Positions 4,833 to 52,418 of a stretch of 52,418 bases of DNA are shown here, piece by piece; position 1 is the first letter of the stretch; every line of letters starts with the position of its first letter. Where the stretch lies: positions 1 to 52,418 of IMG/VR virus record IMGVR_UViG_3300036846_000061. One strand, written 5' to 3'. The notes under the pieces were generated by a model. It saw only the letters and a program-made list of their open reading frames with translations. It was not told the DNA's origin and did no database searches. A program made the position numbers and the translations under genes. The DNA comes from a virus.

Positions 4833-5825
4833 ATGCTTCCAAAAGATCATGTACACTATGACGAGGCTGATCTGCCTGGCGTCATGGACTTTGTTGAACG
4901 AAACTTCCGTGAAGATCAAATTGCTACGCAAGTCTCAGGACTATGGCTTGCGCAACAACTTGATTATATTAAGTCGCAGACATATGATCGTTTGCGTCCA
5001 GGAATGAACGCTGATCGTCTTGTTCCTGACGATACATCTACTCCAGAATGGGCCGAGACTATTACCATTCGTATGTTTGACATGGTTGGTATGGCTAAAG
5101 TAATTGCCAACTATGCAGATGATCTCCCGCGCGCAGACATTGCTGGAGCGGCTCTGAGTGTTCAAGTAAAGACACTTGGCGATAGCTACGGTTACAATGT
5201 AAACGAATTGCGCGCCAGTAGAGCCACTGGAGTTGGTCTTGATACTCGCAAAGCCGATGCTGCTAGGCGAGCAATGGATCTTAAGATTGCCAGTATTAAA
5301 TTGAAGGGAGACCCTGACTTTAACTTGTTTGGATTGTTTACTCATCCAAACGTTCCAGAGTATGTCTTCCCGCATCCTGGCGATTGGACTGCTCTAACTG
5401 GCGATCAAATCTATGAGAATTTGGTCGGCCTTGCCTCTGCTTATACTCAGCAGAACCTAGGTATCCATATCGCTAACTTTTTGGAACTGGCAACTAAAGC
5501 TTATATAGCTGCCACCTCTAAATTTGTTACTGGACCTGGTGGACTTCCCATTGCTGCTCTAAGCCTGTTCGTTGCTAACTTCCCAGGCATTACTGTAGAG
5601 CATATTTGGGAATGCACTAATGCTGGGCAAGGCGCAAATGCAGGTAAGGATGTTGCGCTATTGTATGAGCGTGATATTGGAAACCTCGCGCACGAATATG
5701 TGATGCCGTTCTCGCAGCTACCTCCTGATGCGCGCAATCTAGAGATTGTTACGGATTGCCTGGCCAGGAGCGCTGGTGTTCAAATCTATTATCCTCTGTC
5801 ATTACTGAAAGGCTACACAACCTAA
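4833..5825 (+). CDS. Major capsid protein, DUF2184 type
   Basis: A 330-residue protein resembling the DUF2184 (HK97-fold) major capsid family. Recognisable parts are FREDQIATQVSGLWLAQQLDYI near the N-terminus, DMVGMAKVIANYADDLPRAD (about 84-103), and a C-terminal region with YVMPFSQLPPDARNLE. It forms the shell of the icosahedral head. It has a good ribosome site (AAAGGAATAG) and follows the protease and cement genes, as in other phages with this module. Confidence 0.87.
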   Translation: MLPKDHVHYDEADLPGVMDFVERNFREDQIATQVSGLWLAQQLDYIKSQTYDRLRPGMNADRLVPDDTSTPEWAETITIRMFDMVGMAKVIANYADDLPRADIAGAALSVQVKTLGDSYGYNVNELRASRATGVGLDTRKADAARRAMDLKIASIKLKGDPDFNLFGLFTHPNVPEYVFPHPGDWTALTGDQIYENLVGLASAYTQQNLGIHIANFLELATKAYIAATSKFVTGPGGLPIAALSLFVANFPGITVEHIWECTNAGQGANAGKDVALLYERDIGNLAHEYVMPFSQLPPDARNLEIVTDCLARSAGVQIYYPLSLLKGYTT

Positions 5826-5826
5826 T

Positions 5827-6015
5827 ATGGCGGTTGTAGTAAACAACAGTGAGCGAGCAATAACTATAATTGATGTATTGGTCGCTCCTGGCATGCCAAC
5901 AGAACTACAGGATGAGCGACTAAATCATCCTGGGGTTCAGTCTCTGATGCATCAGATGACTGAGCGTAACGTGCCTGTTCTAGTAATAGTTGCAACTGAA
6001 AGGGACAATGTGTAA
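5827..6015 (+). CDS. Hypothetical protein, 62 aa
   Basis: A small protein beginning MAVVVNNSERAITIIDVLV. It is directly behind the capsid gene and coupled to the next gene by TAATG. The sequence looks like a short beta-rich fold, with hydrophobic strands at residues 2-5, 12-19 and 50-56. No family recognised. Probably a minor head component by position. Confidence 0.65.
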   Translation: MAVVVNNSERAITIIDVLVAPGMPTELQDERLNHPGVQSLMHQMTERNVPVLVIVATERDNV

Positions 6016-6620
6016 TGGCTACTTCTACTCCTGCTTTGATTGTTACTGGTGGTGGTGGACCTGATAATAGTTTGCCTGGTATTGGTAGTGGCGGTGGAAA
6101 TATAGATAATAGTTTGCCGCCACCTCCCGGCATTTGGCCGCCTCCAGTAGAGATTTGGCCGCCAGTTGTTCTTCCACCGGATTATCCAATGCCTCCTGGC
6201 AGCATTTGGCCTCCGGTTATAAATGTTGGTCCGATTCAACCTCCTCACGTTCCGCCTGGTGGACAAGTTCCGCCTCCAAGTGTAGGTGGTGGTCCTGCTC
6301 CTCCGCAACCTGGTCGGCCAACTCCGCCTGATCGTCCAGAGCAAGGTTTGCCACCGCAAATTGGTGGTGGACCAGTGTTGCCAAGTCCGAAATATCTAGT
6401 TGCTATCGTTGCAACAAGTTCTGATGGTGGACTTAAGGTAATTGGATATACTGTAGTGGATCCAAGCCTTAGTGTAGGTTTGCCATTGCCTGGTGGTCCT
6501 CCTGGCCATATTAGTGGTCAGCCACTTCCTCCTGGGCATGTTAGTGGCCAGCCTATTCCGCAGCCTAATCCTCCGCATGTAGGCGGTGGGCCCGCGCCTA
6601 CTCCTGAGCCGAAACGATAA
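6015..6620 (+). CDS. Pro/Gly-rich repetitive protein, 201 aa
   Basis: More than half of this protein is Pro and Gly, in loosely repeated blocks such as PPGIWPPPVEIWPP, VGGGPAPPQPG and PPGHISGQPLPPGHVSGQP. A short ordinary segment (KYLVAIVATSSDGGLKVIGYTVV, about residues 129-151) interrupts the low-complexity part. No signal peptide is seen. It may be an extended, disordered decoration on the head or neck, or an adhesive protein; the position after the capsid gene is the only clue. Translation of such Pro runs would probably need EF-P. Confidence 0.7.
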   Translation: MATSTPALIVTGGGGPDNSLPGIGSGGGNIDNSLPPPPGIWPPPVEIWPPVVLPPDYPMPPGSIWPPVINVGPIQPPHVPPGGQVPPPSVGGGPAPPQPGRPTPPDRPEQGLPPQIGGGPVLPSPKYLVAIVATSSDGGLKVIGYTVVDPSLSVGLPLPGGPPGHISGQPLPPGHVSGQPIPQPNPPHVGGGPAPTPEPKR

Positions 6621-6632
6621 TACAATACTATA

Positions 6633-6658
6633 CCGTGGGTCTAGAGATAGGCCCACGG
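6633..6658 (+). terminator. Strong 10-bp hairpin between two late genes
   Basis: CCGTGGGTCT (6633-6642) can pair with AGGCCCACGG (6649-6658), with one G-U pair and a six-base loop. It is the only long hairpin seen within the head genes and separates the Pro/Gly-rich gene from the PEP-CTERM gene. No T-run follows, so it could be an RNA-stability or processing element rather than an intrinsic terminator. Confidence 0.5.
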
Positions 6659-6689
6659 GACTACCCTATAGTTAACTTTGGAGGGGAAT

Positions 6690-7334
6690 ATGACTAAACT
6701 AGTTGCTATCGTTGTCGGCGCACTGGCCTTTCCTAGCTTTGCCTATGCTGTTCCTATCATTCAGTTTGCTCAAACCAGTGGCAGTAACACTATTACTGCT
6801 ACGGCAAATGCTGGTGATACGGCCACTACTATCTCTGGAACTGATGTAGCAGTAAATGTTGCTCAGAACCTCGGTGGCACTCTTGGCGCTGCCTTTCTTG
6901 ACTTGAATGCTACTAGCGTTGATAGTGCAGTAGCAGTAGGCACTGGTGCGGTCCAGCACTATAATGGAACGTTCTCAGTCTTTACTGGCGCTGGAATGAC
7001 AGGACTAAACCTTCTGTCTGGAGTGTTTACTGATGCCGCTCTTGGTGTTGGTGGCGCTCTCACTCTTGCTATCGGCGCACCTCCTGATACGCTTAACTTG
7101 ACGTCAGACGAAATTCCGGCAGCAGAACTAGTTAATCCAGATGCGGCTTCATTTGGTTTGACTAATGTTTCGCCGGCAATTAATATCGCTGGATCGACTA
7201 TCAATAGTTTTACTGCAACTGTTGCTGGTAATGTATCGTCGTCAGTAGCCGCTGTTCCTGAGCCTGCCAGTATCGCTCTGCTTGGTATGGGTATGCTTGG
7301 TCTTGGTATGCTTCGGTATCGGCGCCAGGAGTAA
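6690..7334 (+). CDS. PEP-CTERM exported protein
   Basis: A 214-residue predicted exported protein. The N-terminus MTKLVAIVVGALAFPSFAYA is a typical signal peptide with likely cleavage after AYA at residue 20. The last 26 residues (189-214) begin VPEPASIALLGMG and form a PEP-CTERM sorting signal: Pro-Glu-Pro motif, hydrophobic segment, then the basic end RYRRQE. In bacteria, exosortases act on such tails during export linked to exopolysaccharide. The middle is Gly/Ala/Thr/Ser-rich and low in Lys, as in other PEP-CTERM proteins. ATG 6690 is chosen because GGAGGGG lies just upstream. A host-derived accessory gene is likely. Codon use looks like its neighbours. Confidence 0.88.
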   Translation: MTKLVAIVVGALAFPSFAYAVPIIQFAQTSGSNTITATANAGDTATTISGTDVAVNVAQNLGGTLGAAFLDLNATSVDSAVAVGTGAVQHYNGTFSVFTGAGMTGLNLLSGVFTDAALGVGGALTLAIGAPPDTLNLTSDEIPAAELVNPDAASFGLTNVSPAINIAGSTINSFTATVAGNVSSSVAAVPEPASIALLGMGMLGLGMLRYRRQE

Positions 7335-7342
7335 TCCCACTA

Positions 7343-7855
7343 GTGTCTGAAGTAAAGACGCTGCCTGTAGAACCTCCACACTGGACAAGTGTGGAGGCTT
7401 TACTCCAACTGTTCTATCCCCAATTCTTTGACGAAACTAATGAGCAATATGTCGATCCAGCTATACTTCTACAGTTGGCGACATTGGCTGAAGAAACACG
7501 ACCGTGGTGTCTTCCTCCTGGCCAACAAGACTTAGCACAAGCAGCATTTACTGCATACTTAGTCTCATTACGTGGCGAGACTAGTTCTGGCGTAACTAAT
7601 GTTCCGACTATAGGGCCTATACAATCTGAGAAGGAAGGTGACATACAAGTAACGTATGCTGCTTCTACTACCAATACACAATCAGGAATGTCACAAAGAC
7701 CGCCATCCGACGCCTGGGATACTTGGAATAGACTATATATGCGTTGTGCTAAAGGTTCCATTATGACTCGCTTTGGCGATCCTTGTAGGTCTGCGCGAGC
7801 ACTAACTGATTATATAAATCCACTTGCATTTAATGTTTGGTATCCGATATGGTAG
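7343..7855 (+). CDS. Head-tail adaptor, DUF4054-like
   Basis: A 170-residue protein with the DUF4054 pattern: F/YPQF near residue 30, then helical AILLQLATLAEE, QAAFTAYLVSLRG, and a C-terminal DPCRSARAL. Members join the portal to the tail. The start is GTG 7343. The ribosome site is the AGGAG inside the CGCCAGGAG motif at 7323-7331, eleven bases upstream. The first neck gene after the PEP-CTERM insert. Confidence 0.7.
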   Translation: MSEVKTLPVEPPHWTSVEALLQLFYPQFFDETNEQYVDPAILLQLATLAEETRPWCLPPGQQDLAQAAFTAYLVSLRGETSSGVTNVPTIGPIQSEKEGDIQVTYAASTTNTQSGMSQRPPSDAWDTWNRLYMRCAKGSIMTRFGDPCRSARALTDYINPLAFNVWYPIW

Positions 7856-8295
7856 CATTTAAGGATAAAGATATGGGATGGAAAGAAATAGAATTGAATA
7901 TTAAACAACTCAAAGGACGCAAGGTCAAAATTGGTATAATGGGAAACGAAAGTGTCGAGGGCACCTCAGTTGTGGATTACGCTATCTATAATGAGTTTGG
8001 CACTCGCAATATTCCTAGTCGCCCTTTCATGGCTACCACTGCTGATAGATATAGAGATGCAACGGTTAAGGTTGCTGAAGCGATGGTTGGAAATGTTATA
8101 GACAGGAAGTATAATGTAGACACTATGTTGGCTAGACTTGGCGCTTGGTATCAAGCTAAGGTTCAACAAACAATACGAGATGCTAAAGAATGGGCTGTGC
8201 CTAATAATCCTGAAACTATAAAAGCAAAGGGATCAAGCTCACCTCTTATTGATACTGGAAGGATGGTAGGATCAGTAAGGTATGAAGTAGAATGA
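7849..8295 (+). CDS. Neck protein, HK97 gp10-like
   Basis: A 148-residue protein with the region VKIGIMGNESVEGTSVVDYAIYNEFGTRNIPSRPFM, close to the conserved core (YA..NEFGT...PPRPF) of HK97 gp10-like head-tail connector proteins. ATG 7849 overlaps the previous stop. A second ATG at 7873 has a better AAGG sequence upstream and could be the true start, giving 140 residues. It ends in an ATGA overlap with the next gene. Confidence 0.75.
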   Translation: MVAFKDKDMGWKEIELNIKQLKGRKVKIGIMGNESVEGTSVVDYAIYNEFGTRNIPSRPFMATTADRYRDATVKVAEAMVGNVIDRKYNVDTMLARLGAWYQAKVQQTIRDAKEWAVPNNPETIKAKGSSSPLIDTGRMVGSVRYEVE

Positions 8296-15527: not shown

Positions 15528-16512
15528 TAGAACATATCGTTTGTTAGTTGGAAAGAAAGGTGAGACTCAAGGTATAGAGATCACAGACTCATTGCGTATT
15601 CAATTTGATATTGAAAAGACTGCTAAGAAAAATCCTAATAAGAGCACAATCAAAGTATATAATTTGAAGAAAGAAACAAGAGCAGAATTTGAAAAACCAG
15701 ATACTAGAGTTGTTTTATATGCTGGATATAAAGATGAAGCCGGAGCAATATTGATCTTTCAAGGTAATGTAAGTTATGCATGGTCAAAGAAAGATGGACC
15801 GGATATCATTACGGAATTTGAACTTGGAGATGGTGCTCAAGAAATCCGTGATACGACAGTATCAGTTGGTTACGGCAAAGGTATTAAATCAACTCAAGTT
15901 CTCAATGATGTCTCCAAACAGATGGGGTTGCCGTTAACATTACCCAATGACGCTCCCACTAGAGTATGGAATAATGGCCTATCATTTCATGGACCTGCTA
16001 GAACTTTGCTAGACAAAGTTACTAAAGGAACTGGATTGGAATGGTCTATACAGAATGGAAACTTGCAAGTAATAGAACATGGAATGGTAACAACTAGACA
16101 AGGAGTATTGATTGCTCAAGATAGCGGAATGATAGGTTCTCCTGAAAGGGAGCGATTGGCCAAAGCTCATACTCATGCTAAAGGAACAGGCAAGACTGTT
16201 GGTCAACCTATTATAGAGCCTGATTATGATGGCTGGAAAGTAAAGTCTTTGCTTATGCCTATGCTTAGTCCTGGTGACCGAATTAAGTTAGAGGCAATGT
16301 TTGTAAATGGGGTGTATAGAATAGAACAAATAAAACACAATGGAGATAGCGATGCTTCTGGCGATTGGCAATCAGAGTTAAGAGTTGTTGATCCTAGGAA
16401 ACCAATTAAAGATACTGCTTCTAAAGCAACTACCCAGAGAGGAACAATAAGCGATAACAGCGATGAGTTTGATATGGTAGATGAAGGAGTATTGCTCTAT
16501 GCTGCGGCTTGA
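15499..16512 (+). CDS. Baseplate hub protein (gp27-like)
   Basis: A 337-residue protein of hub type: early [22 protein letters not shown], then [17 protein letters not shown], and a C-terminal [26 protein letters not shown]. Such hubs sit below the tube and carry the spike. ATG 15499 lies inside the plug gene; the later TTG 15520 is another possible start. The overlap with the spike gene is 14 bases. Confidence 0.75.
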
Positions 16513-18730
16513 TTTAACAGAACTAATTGAGCAGCAAGTAGAGGTTCAACTTGGCAATACTCTAAACACGAGTATGCCTGCCAAGATCATTAGTTATAAT
16601 GCAGCAACAAATCGTGCTGTTGTAAAGCCTGTTTTGCCTAAGCGCCTAGCAAGTGAAGAGCCATTAGACTCACCACAAATTGTAGAAGTTCCAGTTGTAT
16701 TCCCTGCTTCTGGTGGTGGTAAAGCAAGTATGACTTTTCCACTTAAGCCAGGTGATGGAGTTATGCTATCTGTACAACAACGATCATTAGAAGGATGGTT
16801 GGACGGCAGAGAAACAATGCCGGATGATCCTCGGCAATTTGATCTTTCTGATAGTGTAGCCATCGCTGGTTGTCAGCCTTCTGGCATTGTGGGCGATCCT
16901 GACCACGTTGTTTTAAAATTTGATAAATGTACTGTTACTCTAACAAATGATAATAGTGTAGTAGTAGCAACGGAGAAGGCCAATATACTTGTAGACAAAG
17001 ATGGCAATATAACTCAGACAGCACAACAAGCTTATACTGTTACATCTAATGCGATTACTTTGGGCGGTCCGATGGGGGATCGCGCTGCGCCTCCAGGCAA
17101 TATACAAATTAACTCGCATCTAAACTTATCACAGCATCCTATAAATCCATGGGAAGCAACTCCAAAATCTTATGTTGATAGTATAGCTGGAAGTGGATTG
17201 CCAGGACCACCTGGACCGCAGGGCCCAGAGGGACCGCAAGGTGAAGTAGGTCCACCAGGGCCGACTGGCCCGCCAGGAGCAGATAGTACAGTTCCAGGAC
17301 CGCAAGGACCACAGGGTAATACTGGACCTGTTGGACCTAAAGGTGATACTGGACAACAAGGCCCAACTGGTAATACTGGACCGGAAGGCCCACAAGGACC
17401 AATAGGTGATACTGGTCCGCAAGGTCCACAAGGCATACAAGGTATACAAGGGGAAACTGGCGCTGATTCTACTGTTCCGGGTCCGGTTGGACCGCAAGGA
17501 CCAATAGGTGATACCGGACCACAAGGGCCACAAGGCCCACAAGGAGATACTGGGCCTCAAGGCCCACAAGGTATAATTAATGAAGCTCCAACAGATGGAC
17601 AGGCATATGGTAGAGACAATGCTGATTGGACACCAGTATTAAAACTAATTGGTGGGCAATTAAACGGTGCATTAACTATTGGCACTAATACTTTGGCTTC
17701 ACCTCTTGTATTGAATGGTGATGTAGGACAAAATCGCACTATTTGGTTTAATACTGCTGGGTCCGCGCGTTGGGAGTTTTCTGCTAATTCTGCTCCTGAG
17801 AGTGGCGGTAATTTCGGTAGTGATTTTCAAATTGGTCGTTACGATGATAATGGTTCTGGCATTGGATATATATTTGGTATTACTCGTAATACTGGACAAG
17901 TTTGGGTTGGTAATGGATTAAGTATGGGCAATAGCGTGATGTCCTCGCCCACTGACTTATCCCATCATTTATCAATGTATAGTGATAGCTATGGCATCAA
18001 CGTTACAGACAACACTATAAACTTTGTTGCTGCTGGTTATCTTACTTTTAGTGTAAGTCCAAATTATGCTTCGGTCCCTGGCCGTTTACATATTGATGGT
18101 GGGCTTGATTTTGGTGCTAGAGTTGCATCTGGCCCGACTGATGTAACACAGCATATTGCATTGTTTGATACTTCATATGGATTTAGCATTACTGGCGGCA
18201 CCTTAAATATAGTCAATGGTGGCAATACTTCTTTTTATAGTTATGGAGTTAGAGATGCACATATTGACTCTAATGGTTTAACATTAGATCGAGGGAATGT
18301 TCTTCTGCTTGGTGATCCTGGATTGCCATTACAGGCCGCAACGAAACAATATGTTGATACTAATCTTGGTAAATATTTGCCATTAATTGGTGGCGACCTT
18401 ACTGGCAATCTAGATATTTATTCTGCTGGTTTAAGAGTTTGGAATGGAACAATTTATGTTCAAAATGATTATGATGCTTATGTGGATATACAGGGGCCTG
18501 CTGGTGAGTTCTATTTTGGTGTAGATGCTACTGGCTTTTATCTTTATTGCGGAACATATGCATTACGATTTTCATCTGCTGATTGGCAATGGACATATTT
18601 AGCTCCAGTTATATTGTGGGCTGATCCTGTATTACCAATGGAAGCTGTAACAAAACAATATGTCGATGCTCTTGCTGCTAGAGTTGCAGTATTAGAGAAT
18701 GCTCACTCGCAATGGGACGTAGGAGTATAA
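16499..18730 (+). CDS. Baseplate spike fused to collagen-like and fibre domains
   Basis: A 743-residue chimeric protein. Residues 1-150 resemble the gp138/gpV-type central spike ([20 protein letters not shown], then [22 protein letters not shown]). About 233-358 is a run of Gly-X-Y triplets (GPQGPQG, GDTGPQG). The rest holds fibre repeat blocks related to those at 9295, including [14 protein letters not shown] and two ATKQYVD elements, ending in a coiled coil. ATG 16499 is chosen because GAAGGAG lies just upstream. A spike continuous with an adhesive fibre is unusual. Confidence 0.8.
17195..17575 (+). repeat. Collagen-like Gly-X-Y repeat coding region
   Basis: About 40 consecutive Gly-X-Y triplets, rich in GPQ, GPP and GDT, with two interruptions (GADSTVPGP). 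The DNA is accordingly repetitive (CCACAAGGCCCACAAGG-type units). Such runs form trimeric, collagen-like rods in phage fibres and often vary in length by recombination. Confidence 0.92.
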
Positions 18731-28245: not shown

Positions 28246-31038
28246 CTAGCTCGCGGACCCTAGGAACCTAAATCGGTCGATGTATACTCGCCTGCCTGAT
28301 CTTGCCATACCACCGAATATAAACCAATCGCCAATACTATGATCATTAAGTATTTGCAAACCTAATGATGGATACTTGAACCTTGATATAGTTGCATAGG
28401 CAGTGGCAGTATCATCCTCAATCAGTAAGTTTAGCCATTTATCCATCGGAACAACTACATTGTTACGCTGCACTAAGAACATAGTTTCATTAAGTGATCT
28501 TTCGTTTCGATGCACAATCTTTGCCATTAATGTAATTGGACCCTCATAGTTATCAGATAGGTCAATTAGGTCTTTGCGAGGTACATGAATGATATTATAC
28601 TTCTTTGGGTCCGAAATTACTTCAGCAAAACGTTTCCTGCCTTCAAATATGTTATCAAATGGAGTTGTTATTTCTTTCGGCCATTTATATGGAACTCTCG
28701 CAGCGCGCGCCAGGAGTATATCTTGAGCCTTACGGAAACCAATGCCCTTTATATTTACAAGACCGCCTAGGAACGATCCATCTGCATAGCTCCAAGTAAC
28801 ATCGCTCTTGTCTAGATCATAAGTAACAAATGGATAACCAGCACGATCCAATTCGCGCAAGTAACGTTTGATAGGTTCTTCAAATGATAAGTTTCTAATA
28901 TTGGCTAATGCAAACTCAATAGGATAGTGAGCCTTGAGTATACAACAAAAATAAGATAGCATACCATAAGCCACAGCATGAGACTTATTGAAAGCCCAAG
29001 ACCCCATTTTATTGACACTATCCCATATCCTCCTGGCCGTAGCCTCATCGATGCCCTGTGACATCGCACCAGTTCTAAACCTCTGCCAGAAACGATCAAA
29101 GTATTCAATACCAAAAGACTTAGACATAGCTTTGCGTAATGTGGAGGTATCTTCCCATGATAACAAACCAATCTCACGAACGCAATTCATAACTTGTTCT
29201 TGATAAACTATAACTCCATACGTGTCCTTAGTATAACGTTCCATAGATGGATGGATGTATTGGGCTTCTTGTTTGCCCATTCGTCGTTGGACCCACTCGT
29301 TACTGGCGCCAGAAGCGAATGGCCCTGGTCGAGCAAGAGCAGTAAGACAAGCTATGTCATCGAAACGATCTACAGTCAGTCTCCTGGCTAGGGTCTGCAA
29401 AGCTTGACCTTCAAACTGGAAGATACCGCAGAACTGAAACTTACGCAATACTTCAAAAGCTTTGTCATCATCTAAAGGATGATTTAGTAGATCACTATAC
29501 TTCCAACCTATAGCCTCTAGACAATCAGCAATTATAGTTAATGTCTTGAGACCTAGCGCATCTATCTTCATCAAATTGATTAGTTCGGCATCGTATTTGT
29601 CTATGTGAACTGTGTTAGTCTTTACATCCTTAGCTACATAATTGATAAGAGGCTCATTAGTTATAATGACACCGGCCGCGTGCTTACCAGTAGTATGTGC
29701 ATGGTTCTCTAGTTCTCCTGCAATAACCATAGCAGGATACTGTTCAATAAATCTTTGTCCAATCTCTAGTTCCTTGAACGTATCAAGAATACATAATCCT
29801 GCTCTTGAGTCTCCACTGGACCTCTTGAGCATTGAGTCCTTTAGTGCAATAGTATCATTGTCAGGTATCCTTAATGCTTTGGCTGCCTCTCCAATAGCTG
29901 ACTTGGGCTTATATCTTAGTATGGTTCCCAATCGCGCAACGTTCTCACTGCCATACTTATCTTGTATATACTCAAAGACCATTTCTCTTTTATTGTCTTG
30001 AAAGTCTATGTCAATATCCGGTAGATCATATCTAGTAACATCAATAAACCTTTCAAAGATAAGACCATGAGGGAGAGGATCAATATCAGTAATGCCAAGT
30101 AAGTAACACACGAGACTACCACAACTAGAGCCGCGAGCCGGTCCGACCAACATGTGTTGTTTAGCATATCGCACCATGTCTGTTATGACATAGAAGTAAT
30201 CATCATATCCTTTGTCGCTGATAAGTTTAAGTTCATAGTCTAGTCTGTCTTTGTATACTTGATTTAACTCTAGTCCACGGCTCCTGGCGCCCAAGAGACA
30301 CATATCTAGTAATGATATATCAGACTTATATTTGATATTAGTTGCAGTTTGTATAGTGGCATCACATTCTTCCGCTAGCTTGTCCGCCAGGAGAAAAGCT
30401 TGATCATCTATTTCCATTTCATTACGCAAACTCCATTCATCCATAATATACATAGGGGATGGTCGGTCATTGCGAAACTTCCTGGCCAATATTTGATAGA
30501 TAGAACGATCCTCTGCACTGATCATATAATTGTCAGATACTGCAACAATCTTTCCATCCTTTAGCAGCATACCTAATGTAGAAGGATGTCCCTCCCTATA
30601 TACGCGTGGCCCGATCTTAACGCCCTGTCCTAGACCTGAGTTACCTGAGAGTATAATGACATCTTTACTGAAACCATTAAGTCTTATGAAAGGTAAACGT
30701 AATATTGCATTGTAAGTATTCTCTGATGCTTCCTCTACAGCTGAGTATAGTTCTTTGAGTCCTGAATTAGTCTTGGCTATCAGTGATATCCAAAATATGT
30801 TTTGTCGCTTTTCACGAACATTTATATCTCTGACAAAAGCCATTTCGATCCCGAATAATGGCTTAATGCCGGCGGCTGTACATTGCTTAGACCATTGTAC
30901 ATGGCCGAATGTTGAGTTCTTATCAGTAATGGCCGCTGCTTGGCAACCTAGTTCTTGTAGTCTATTTATGACTTTGGGAATGGGCCCGTAGGCCCACCCA
31001 AATGAGAACTCAGTTCTTATCTTGAGTTGGGTCCTCAC
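28246..31038 (-). CDS. dnaE: DNA polymerase III alpha-type replicase
   Basis: A 930-residue family C DNA polymerase. The catalytic motif PDIDIDF is at 340-346 (Asp341, Asp343), preceded by GPARGSSCGSL (299-309), both diagnostic. A helix-hairpin-helix (NIKGIGFRKAQDILLARA) lies in the C-terminal third. It is shorter than the roughly 1160 residues of cellular DnaE and lacks much of the C-terminal part. The N-terminal PHP domain has lost its first metal-binding histidines (KIRTEFSFG in place of the usual HxHS), so it should be inactive. The start GTG 31038 has AAGGAG upstream. A DnaQ-like exonuclease is encoded two genes upstream. Confidence 0.93.
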   Translation of the reverse strand: MRTQLKIRTEFSFGWAYGPIPKVINRLQELGCQAAAITDKNSTFGHVQWSKQCTAAGIKPLFGIEMAFVRDINVREKRQNIFWISLIAKTNSGLKELYSAVEEASENTYNAILRLPFIRLNGFSKDVIILSGNSGLGQGVKIGPRVYREGHPSTLGMLLKDGKIVAVSDNYMISAEDRSIYQILARKFRNDRPSPMYIMDEWSLRNEMEIDDQAFLLADKLAEECDATIQTATNIKYKSDISLLDMCLLGARSRGLELNQVYKDRLDYELKLISDKGYDDYFYVITDMVRYAKQHMLVGPARGSSCGSLVCYLLGITDIDPLPHGLIFERFIDVTRYDLPDIDIDFQDNKREMVFEYIQDKYGSENVARLGTILRYKPKSAIGEAAKALRIPDNDTIALKDSMLKRSSGDSRAGLCILDTFKELEIGQRFIEQYPAMVIAGELENHAHTTGKHAAGVIITNEPLINYVAKDVKTNTVHIDKYDAELINLMKIDALGLKTLTIIADCLEAIGWKYSDLLNHPLDDDKAFEVLRKFQFCGIFQFEGQALQTLARRLTVDRFDDIACLTALARPGPFASGASNEWVQRRMGKQEAQYIHPSMERYTKDTYGVIVYQEQVMNCVREIGLLSWEDTSTLRKAMSKSFGIEYFDRFWQRFRTGAMSQGIDEATARRIWDSVNKMGSWAFNKSHAVAYGMLSYFCCILKAHYPIEFALANIRNLSFEEPIKRYLRELDRAGYPFVTYDLDKSDVTWSYADGSFLGGLVNIKGIGFRKAQDILLARAARVPYKWPKEITTPFDNIFEGRKRFAEVISDPKKYNIIHVPRKDLIDLSDNYEGPITLMAKIVHRNERSLNETMFLVQRNNVVVPMDKWLNLLIEDDTATAYATISRFKYPSLGLQILNDHSIGDWFIFGGMARSGRRVYIDRFRFLGSAS

Positions 31039-51076: not shown

Positions 51077-52418
51077 TGTATGATGGATTTGATACTGACT
51101 CTGATCTAAGACCGCAACCAGGTCCACAAGAACAATTCTTGTCTACTGCTGCCGACATAGCTATATATGGAGGTGCCGCTGGAGGTGGTAAGACTTATGC
51201 TCTACTGCTTGAGCCTTGTCGTCATATTGATAATGCTGACTTCGGCGCTGTCATATTTCGTCGCGAGGCTGTTCAAATCACTTCTGAAGGAGGTTTGTTC
51301 GACACCAGTTTCCAAATATACGAGCGTATAGACGGCACTCCAAGACAAAGCCCATATAAGATGTGGACGTTTACTAGTGGCGCCACTATAACGTTCAGCC
51401 ATCTTCACAATAACCACGATGTAAATGACTGGCAAGGATCACAAATCCCGCTCATTGGATACGACGAACTCACCCATTTTACTGAACAGCAATTTTGGTA
51501 TATGTTGTCCCGCAATAGGTCGATGTGTGGTGTTCGACCGTATATACGTGCGACATGTAATCCTGATGCTGACTCTTGGGTTGCTGATTTGGTGTCTTGG
51601 TATATTGATCAAGATACTGGTTATCCTTTGCCCGATAGGTCTGGCATCATACGTTATTTTATTAGAACAGACGACAAAATGATTTGGGCAAATACGCGCC
51701 AGGAGTTACTATGTAAGTTCCCTGGATCACTGCCGAAATCATTTACATTCATCCCTGCTACTCTTGAAGACAATGTTATTCTAAACAATCAAGACCCAGA
51801 CTACCGCGCTAATCTAGAGATGATGACTAGAGTAGAACGCGAGCGTCTGTTACACGGTAATTGGAAGATTAAACCTACAGCTGGTTCTTACTTCCCACAG
51901 ACTTGTATAAATATAATCCCAGCCGAACCTACCGATGTAAAGGTTTGGATTAGACGTTGGGATTTGGCAGCTACAGAGCCCAGTGAAGTTAGTCCATCGC
52001 CTAGTGCTACCGCATCAGTGTTAATGGGTCGCAGAGAGAATGGCAGATTTGTTATTGCTGATGGGATTAATATACGGCGTAACGCTTCTGTGGTGCGTGA
52101 TATATTGTCTGCTACTGCTTCACAGGATCGAAGCAAGTATAGGCGAGTTACAACAGTCGTGCCACAAGATCCAGGACAGGCTGGAAAAGATCAGTCAGCA
52201 TCTATCATCGCTTTCCTCGCAGGTTATAAGGTTAAATCTATACGAGAAACAGGACCCAAGATTACTAGAGCAGAACCTTTGTCTGCCCAATGGCAAGCCG
52301 GAAATGTTGACATAGTAGATGGTCCGTGGGTCCGGGATTACTTGAAGGAAATGGCTGCGTTTCCTGAAGGTGATCATGATGATTATGTCGATGCTAGTAG
52401 TGGTGCCTTTCTTGAGTG
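51076..52418 (+). CDS. terL: Terminase large subunit (5' part; ends at 176)
   Basis: The packaging motor. Walker A is GGAAGGGKT (residues 32-40), Walker B is LIGYDELTHF, motif III is RATCNPD. The nuclease domain shows RRWDLAAT (first Asp), VPQDPGQAGKD, and HDDYVDA at the end. It is open to the right end of the window and continues at base 3 of the left end, giving 463 residues. A headful or cohesive-end packager cannot be told apart by these motifs. ATG 51076 overlaps the stop of the small subunit (TAATG). Confidence 0.95.
   Translation, partial: MYDGFDTDSDLRPQPGPQEQFLSTAADIAIYGGAAGGGKTYALLLEPCRHIDNADFGAVIFRREAVQITSEGGLFDTSFQIYERIDGTPRQSPYKMWTFTSGATITFSHLHNNHDVNDWQGSQIPLIGYDELTHFTEQQFWYMLSRNRSMCGVRPYIRATCNPDADSWVADLVSWYIDQDTGYPLPDRSGIIRYFIRTDDKMIWANTRQELLCKFPGSLPKSFTFIPATLEDNVILNNQDPDYRANLEMMTRVERERLLHGNWKIKPTAGSYFPQTCINIIPAEPTDVKVWIRRWDLAATEPSEVSPSPSATASVLMGRRENGRFVIADGINIRRNASVVRDILSATASQDRSKYRRVTTVVPQDPGQAGKDQSASIIAFLAGYKVKSIRETGPKITRAEPLSAQWQAGNVDIVDGPWVRDYLKEMAAFPEGDHDDYVDASSGAFLE
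52292..52418. repeat. 127-base terminal overlap with bases 1-127
   Basis: The last 127 bases are identical to the first 127 and lie inside terL, whose frame runs on without a break. This is the mark of a circular assembly (an overlap of k-mer length) and not a biological terminal repeat, since it splits a gene. The unique genome is 52,291 bp. Confidence 0.93.

Follow-up and report, generated by a model that had tools for sequence, protein, structure and literature searches.

The gene at positions 6690-7334 of the window, by which we mean the whole stretch of viral DNA analysed here (52,418 nucleotides), encodes a PEP-CTERM protein. Judged from sequence, the gene is probably phage cargo (a 'moron') for an exosortase-dependent surface protein; we put the probability that export, handling by a host exosortase and a surface role hold jointly at about 0.7.

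The PEP-CTERM protein and its two signals

The open reading frame lies on the + strand, starts with the ATG at 6690, ends with the stop codon at 7332-7334 and specifies 214 aa. A ribosome-binding site, GGAGGGG, can be read from the sequence at 6680-6686 (+), where TGGAG is kept in four aligned relatives. The N-terminus, MTKLVAIVVGALAFPSFAYA (6690-6749, +), is a Sec-type signal peptide with AYA at its end and without a lipobox; based on sequence reading and a simple hydropathy rule applied across all full-length members of the family, a signal-peptide-like start is present in every one of them. The C-terminal tail, VPEPASIALLGMGMLGLGMLRYRRQE, contains the sorting signal, which consists of VPEP, a hydrophobic helix and a basic end (7251-7325, +); Gram-negative bacteria direct proteins to the cell surface by signals of this type. 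PF07589 matched the protein with 26.7 bits (E 5.6e-6; gathering cut-off 20.7), and TIGR02595 gave 25.1 bits in the genome search and 21.1 bits for the protein alone (cut-off 16); the two models had no match in 14 control genomes. The preliminary description had regarded both signals as intact, and the scores above the cut-offs of both models, together with the Sec-type start, bear it out. A tail that arose by chance is excluded because the homologues retain it. With a tail scored by curated models and an N-terminal signal peptide, the product is a PEP-CTERM protein.

The mature domain (6750-7247, +) is beta-rich. The AlphaFold2 model, built on a 58-row alignment with a mean pLDDT of 88, consists of a signal helix, a barrel or sandwich of antiparallel beta strands at residues ~21-185 and a C-terminal helix at residues 193-213. 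Foldseek returned no hit at E ≤0.001, the best VIA-align Z was 8.7, for small barrels at background level, and neither PDB nor BFVD held a structural match above background. The mature domain had no NCBIfam family match, and the window protein had no match in PHROG and so does not belong to a known kind of virion protein. The predicted fold is compatible with a surface role and says nothing beyond that.

Among 58 diverse members, the only invariant columns are G111, D115, S139, G180, E191 and P192. The PEP motif has E191-P192 as its core, preceded by Pro in 46 of the 58; in all 58, the EP is followed by a hydrophobic helix and no fewer than two basic residues. Compared with its nearest full-length relatives, the gene had a dN/dS of 0.12, 0.18 and 0.23; comparison with a fragment gave 0.08, and the capsid, protease and neck genes yielded 0.06-0.36 in the same comparisons. 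The gene is thus under strong purifying selection. EP aside, the tail and the signal peptide evolve faster than the mature domain; in the close relative L002, the tail is degenerate ahead of the EP (ASEPAG) and is not reported by Pfam.

Genome and upstream region

The window begins and ends with the same 127 bases (1-127 and 52292-52418), as in a circular assembly, and the TerL gene is split over the circular join. Because of the identical ends, the window is probably a complete genome of ~52.3 kb, which makes the absence of a gene from it meaningful. The preliminary description had placed the PEP-CTERM gene inside head-neck genes, and the flanks agree: the slot has a major head protein on its left (4833-5825, +; phrog_264, E 7.5e-70) and neck genes on its right (7343-8295, +), with phrog_302 at 7343-7855 and Neck1 phrog_222 at 7837-8295.

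The intergenic region ahead of the gene contains a hairpin with an 11-bp stem (6633-6658, +; RNA fold -26.8 kcal/mol, z -3.9). It occurs once in the genome and is conserved in four relatives, L114, L115 and L122 among them, and the stem in L114 carries a compensating double change from C-G to G-C. The hairpin might be a processing site or an attenuator, and its conservation suggests that the PEP-CTERM gene may be expressed separately from the preceding gene. No promoter signal above chance was found near the gene, and the intergenic region ahead of it gave no match to a sigma-54 site such as has been reported for PEP-CTERM genes of hosts.

As clues to the host, the window has no tRNA genes and a GC content of 41.5%, which does not point to Acetobacteraceae. 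Elsewhere in the window, a 749-aa protein of the baseplate region (16481-18730) has a long collagen-like Gly-Pro-Pro repeat, and a 930-aa protein (28246-31038, - strand) resembles, by eye, the alpha subunit of bacterial DNA polymerase III.

Absence of a phage exosortase

The window genome has no PF09721 exosortase match, so that the statement of the preliminary description that the phage encodes none holds for a genome that is probably complete. No exosortase scored above cut-off in 47 viral records either. A phage-borne enzyme was rejected, the sole trace being a sub-threshold fragment on the L013 contig. All three bacterial genomes with full-length relatives of the protein do have an exosortase; the single one that was examined proved to be exosortase A (XrtA; 291 bits, cut-off 208). 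In Rhodopila's family the enzyme was found in 53 of 150 genomes. These findings fit the use of a host enzyme. The identity of the protein, the lack of a phage exosortase and the selection on both signals together make host exosortase use the best reading.

A large and mostly viral family

PEP-CTERM models were also searched in viral records, a check that had been proposed for phage genomes at the outset, and 39 of 47 scored above cut-off. Relatives of the window protein in IMG/VR numbered 16 in one scan, 112 by profile and at least 131 contigs by a wider profile. Among 84,980 bacterial and archaeal genomes scanned, only two had relatives, both Rhodopila MAGs; the contrast between viral and cellular numbers is rough because the two kinds of scan used different peptide patterns. 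Of 200 genomes from Rhodopila's family, two had full-length matches and many more matched by the tail alone; among 398 genomes from its phylum, a full-length match occurred in one (E ≤1e-12), namely the seed genome itself. The first reading concerned one odd gene; the protein family is large and mostly viral. Homologues were absent from the cultured phages of INPHARED (queries, the window protein and L008) and from the plasmids of PLSDB, and two partner families likewise had no homologue in INPHARED.

The Rhodopila copies lie in conserved chromosome, next to genes resembling smpB and dapA, and the neighbours of a third cellular copy are ordinary cellular genes; a prophage origin of the cellular copies was rejected on these grounds. 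On the tree, the root of which is not known, the Rhodopila copies fall inside a (starred) clade that is otherwise viral.

Changing slots and repeated gain

The phages nearest the window share a common order of virion genes, and the PEP-CTERM gene occupies at least four slots within this fixed order. The capsid-neck slot is used in the window, L114-L118, L125, L129 and L150, the gap from TerL to portal in L151, L167, L176 and L085, and the gap from protease to decoration genes in L135; in L097, L216 and L222, the gene precedes those for the terminase. On the L228 contig it is distant from the virion genes. In L194 and L210, PEP-CTERM proteins whose mature domain is different fill such slots. 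L189 has a capsid protein that shares 79% identity with that of the window; its capsid-neck gap is 200 bases long and empty, and no PEP-CTERM match was found anywhere in the 35-kb contig. Presence or absence among close relatives at a flanked slot, as here, is the mark of a moron.

A single acquisition in the window's lineage was rejected (delta lnL 152.5 against one clade), and the lineage label changes six times on the tree; the gene has been gained repeatedly. When the window is counted together with the contigs of ≥30 kb whose capsid identity is ≥57%, a PEP-CTERM gene is present in 12 of 15, and the three without one are incomplete. None was found in 19 long contigs whose capsid identity is 42-50% (Fisher p 8e-7 for 12/15 versus 0/19, uncorrected for relatedness), nor in cultured Rhizobium phages whose TerL is 50% identical.

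Other phage types and recurrent partners

Relatives also occur beside other packaging and head genes. TerL belongs to phrog_2 in L158, to phrog_9 in L134 and L145, and to phrog_38 in L156, which has the head protein phrog_9953; the portal types are phrog_12 (L134), phrog_1216 (L126) and phrog_156 (L161, L164). Tandem arrangements with another PEP-CTERM protein, unrelated in its mature domain, occur in ~15 loci. Further PEP-CTERM proteins with unrelated mature domains were seen at L143:8027-8725, L158:2663-3355, L091:6691-7383, L139:2652-3353 and L173:10687-11394, and one of these five is present in 15 viral contigs.

Two further kinds of protein recur near the gene. The right-handed beta-helix-like protein, found in 16 loci including L173:8024-9196, has no PHROG or Pfam match and may act on polysaccharide. 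The Pro-rich protein recurs in 15 loci, including the window (6015-6620, +), and has DN(S/T)LPG repeats and a conserved core like FLVAI/VIGYTVVDPSL, without a signal peptide. It lies near the PEP-CTERM gene in the unrelated phages L083, L084, L095, L122, L123, L132, L153 and L161.

Discussion

In the model of the exosortase system, a signal peptide directs export, the C-terminal helix holds the protein with the PEP motif on the periplasmic side, and the protein is handed over to exosortase (PMC1569441). One host PEP-CTERM protein holds exopolysaccharide on cells (PMC9850573). For the host, late expression, processing, location and benefit of the phage protein, we infer a course along these lines. 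The gene would probably be transcribed late, together with the surrounding virion genes. Its product would cross the inner membrane by Sec and lose the signal peptide, and the C-terminal helix would retain it so that the PEP motif faces the periplasm, where an exosortase of the host, the phage having none, would process it. The beta-rich domain would then reach the outer surface or the exopolysaccharide matrix. Displayed near the time of virion assembly, it could reduce adsorption or alter the matrix; most likely, the altered surface of the infected cell would lower further adsorption, or the binding of exopolysaccharide would be changed.

Part of the first reading of this gene stands, namely a PEP-CTERM protein without a phage exosortase, whose signals are under selection. 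Its suggestion that the protein may decorate virions has become less likely because export is expected, the gene changes slots and non-homologous PEP-CTERM proteins substitute for it. Under that alternative, the protein would sit in the capsid or neck and its tail would be a mere membrane or assembly anchor. The position of the gene, flanked by capsid and neck genes both in the window and in its close relatives, speaks for it, but the signal peptide in every full-length member would divert the protein from capsid assembly in the cytoplasm, the same virion genes occur in relatives that have the gene in other slots or lack it, and unrelated PEP-CTERM proteins take its place; we regard virion decoration as improbable. 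An exported cargo protein with a plain C-terminal anchor, whose site of action would be the inner membrane or the periplasm, independent of exosortase, for instance by blocking DNA entry of a second phage, is unlikely but deserves a little more weight. A signal peptide and a transmembrane helix would suffice for it, and the inner membrane is where many known exclusion proteins act. In such a protein, however, the EP that is invariant ahead of the helix in 58 diverse members would be superfluous, and the unrelated replacement proteins carry it as well.

The export signal, the beta-rich, presumptively periplasmic domain and the C-terminal transmembrane helix also match the plan of a u-spanin, a lysis or envelope protein tethered to both membranes, in which case the likeness to PEP-CTERM would be incidental. 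U-spanins, such as T1 gp11, require an N-terminal lipobox cysteine, whereas the window protein has a PEP motif and no lipobox, and no lipobox cysteine stands at the cleavage sites of the 58 members. The lone pattern match, in L084, has its cysteine within the hydrophobic core of the signal, with an AYA site downstream. Since the invariant EP and the PF07589 scores indicate exosortase, and some genomes have two different proteins of this kind, we think a u-spanin very improbable. Accidental host DNA or a misassembled contig might be considered because PEP-CTERM proteins are normally bacterial and Rhodopila has chromosomal relatives. We give this next to no credence: it is refuted by synteny and selection, as several independent contigs share the same flanks and the gene is under purifying selection, and the cellular copies are rare and lie within an otherwise viral clade.

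Compared with the PEP-CTERM proteins of the EpsH/XrtA system (TIGR02595/PF07589), the window protein has the same succession of signal peptide, unrecognisable middle, PEP motif, helix and basic end, but it is encoded by a phage without an exosortase and its mature domain is mainly viral. In the papers that we found, the EpsH/XrtA-system proteins are described as bacterial genes, and a search of 5.39 million open-access papers, phage and prophage papers included, gave no account of a phage-encoded one. The flocculation protein PepA (NF033554; Zoogloea, Aquincola) is alike in its kind of tail and export plan; homology to it was rejected, as NF033554 gave 45.2 bits against a cut-off of 80 and no match without the tail. 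Known phage morons that alter the surface include lipoproteins such as Llp of T5, and seroconversion and exclusion genes. Like these, the window gene is an extra gene, set amid virion genes and variable in place and presence among close relatives; we know of no surface-altering moron that takes the PEP-CTERM/exosortase route.

Returning to the reading as exosortase-dependent cargo, we lean somewhat toward the broader view that several unrelated phage groups use swappable PEP-CTERM proteins, often two per genome, to commandeer the host exosortase and rebuild the surface of the infected cell. Relatives occur in more than 100 viral contigs of several unrelated kinds, and these phages therefore probably redecorate infected cells by means of the sorting machinery of their hosts. 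Exosortase systems are widespread among Gram-negative bacteria from the environment, and the roles of their substrates are mostly obscure. Provided that phages gain and exchange such substrates again and again, sorting to the surface through exosortase would be a target of virus-host interaction. The phage copies also offer compact, selected substrates from which to learn what this enzyme delivers and to what place.
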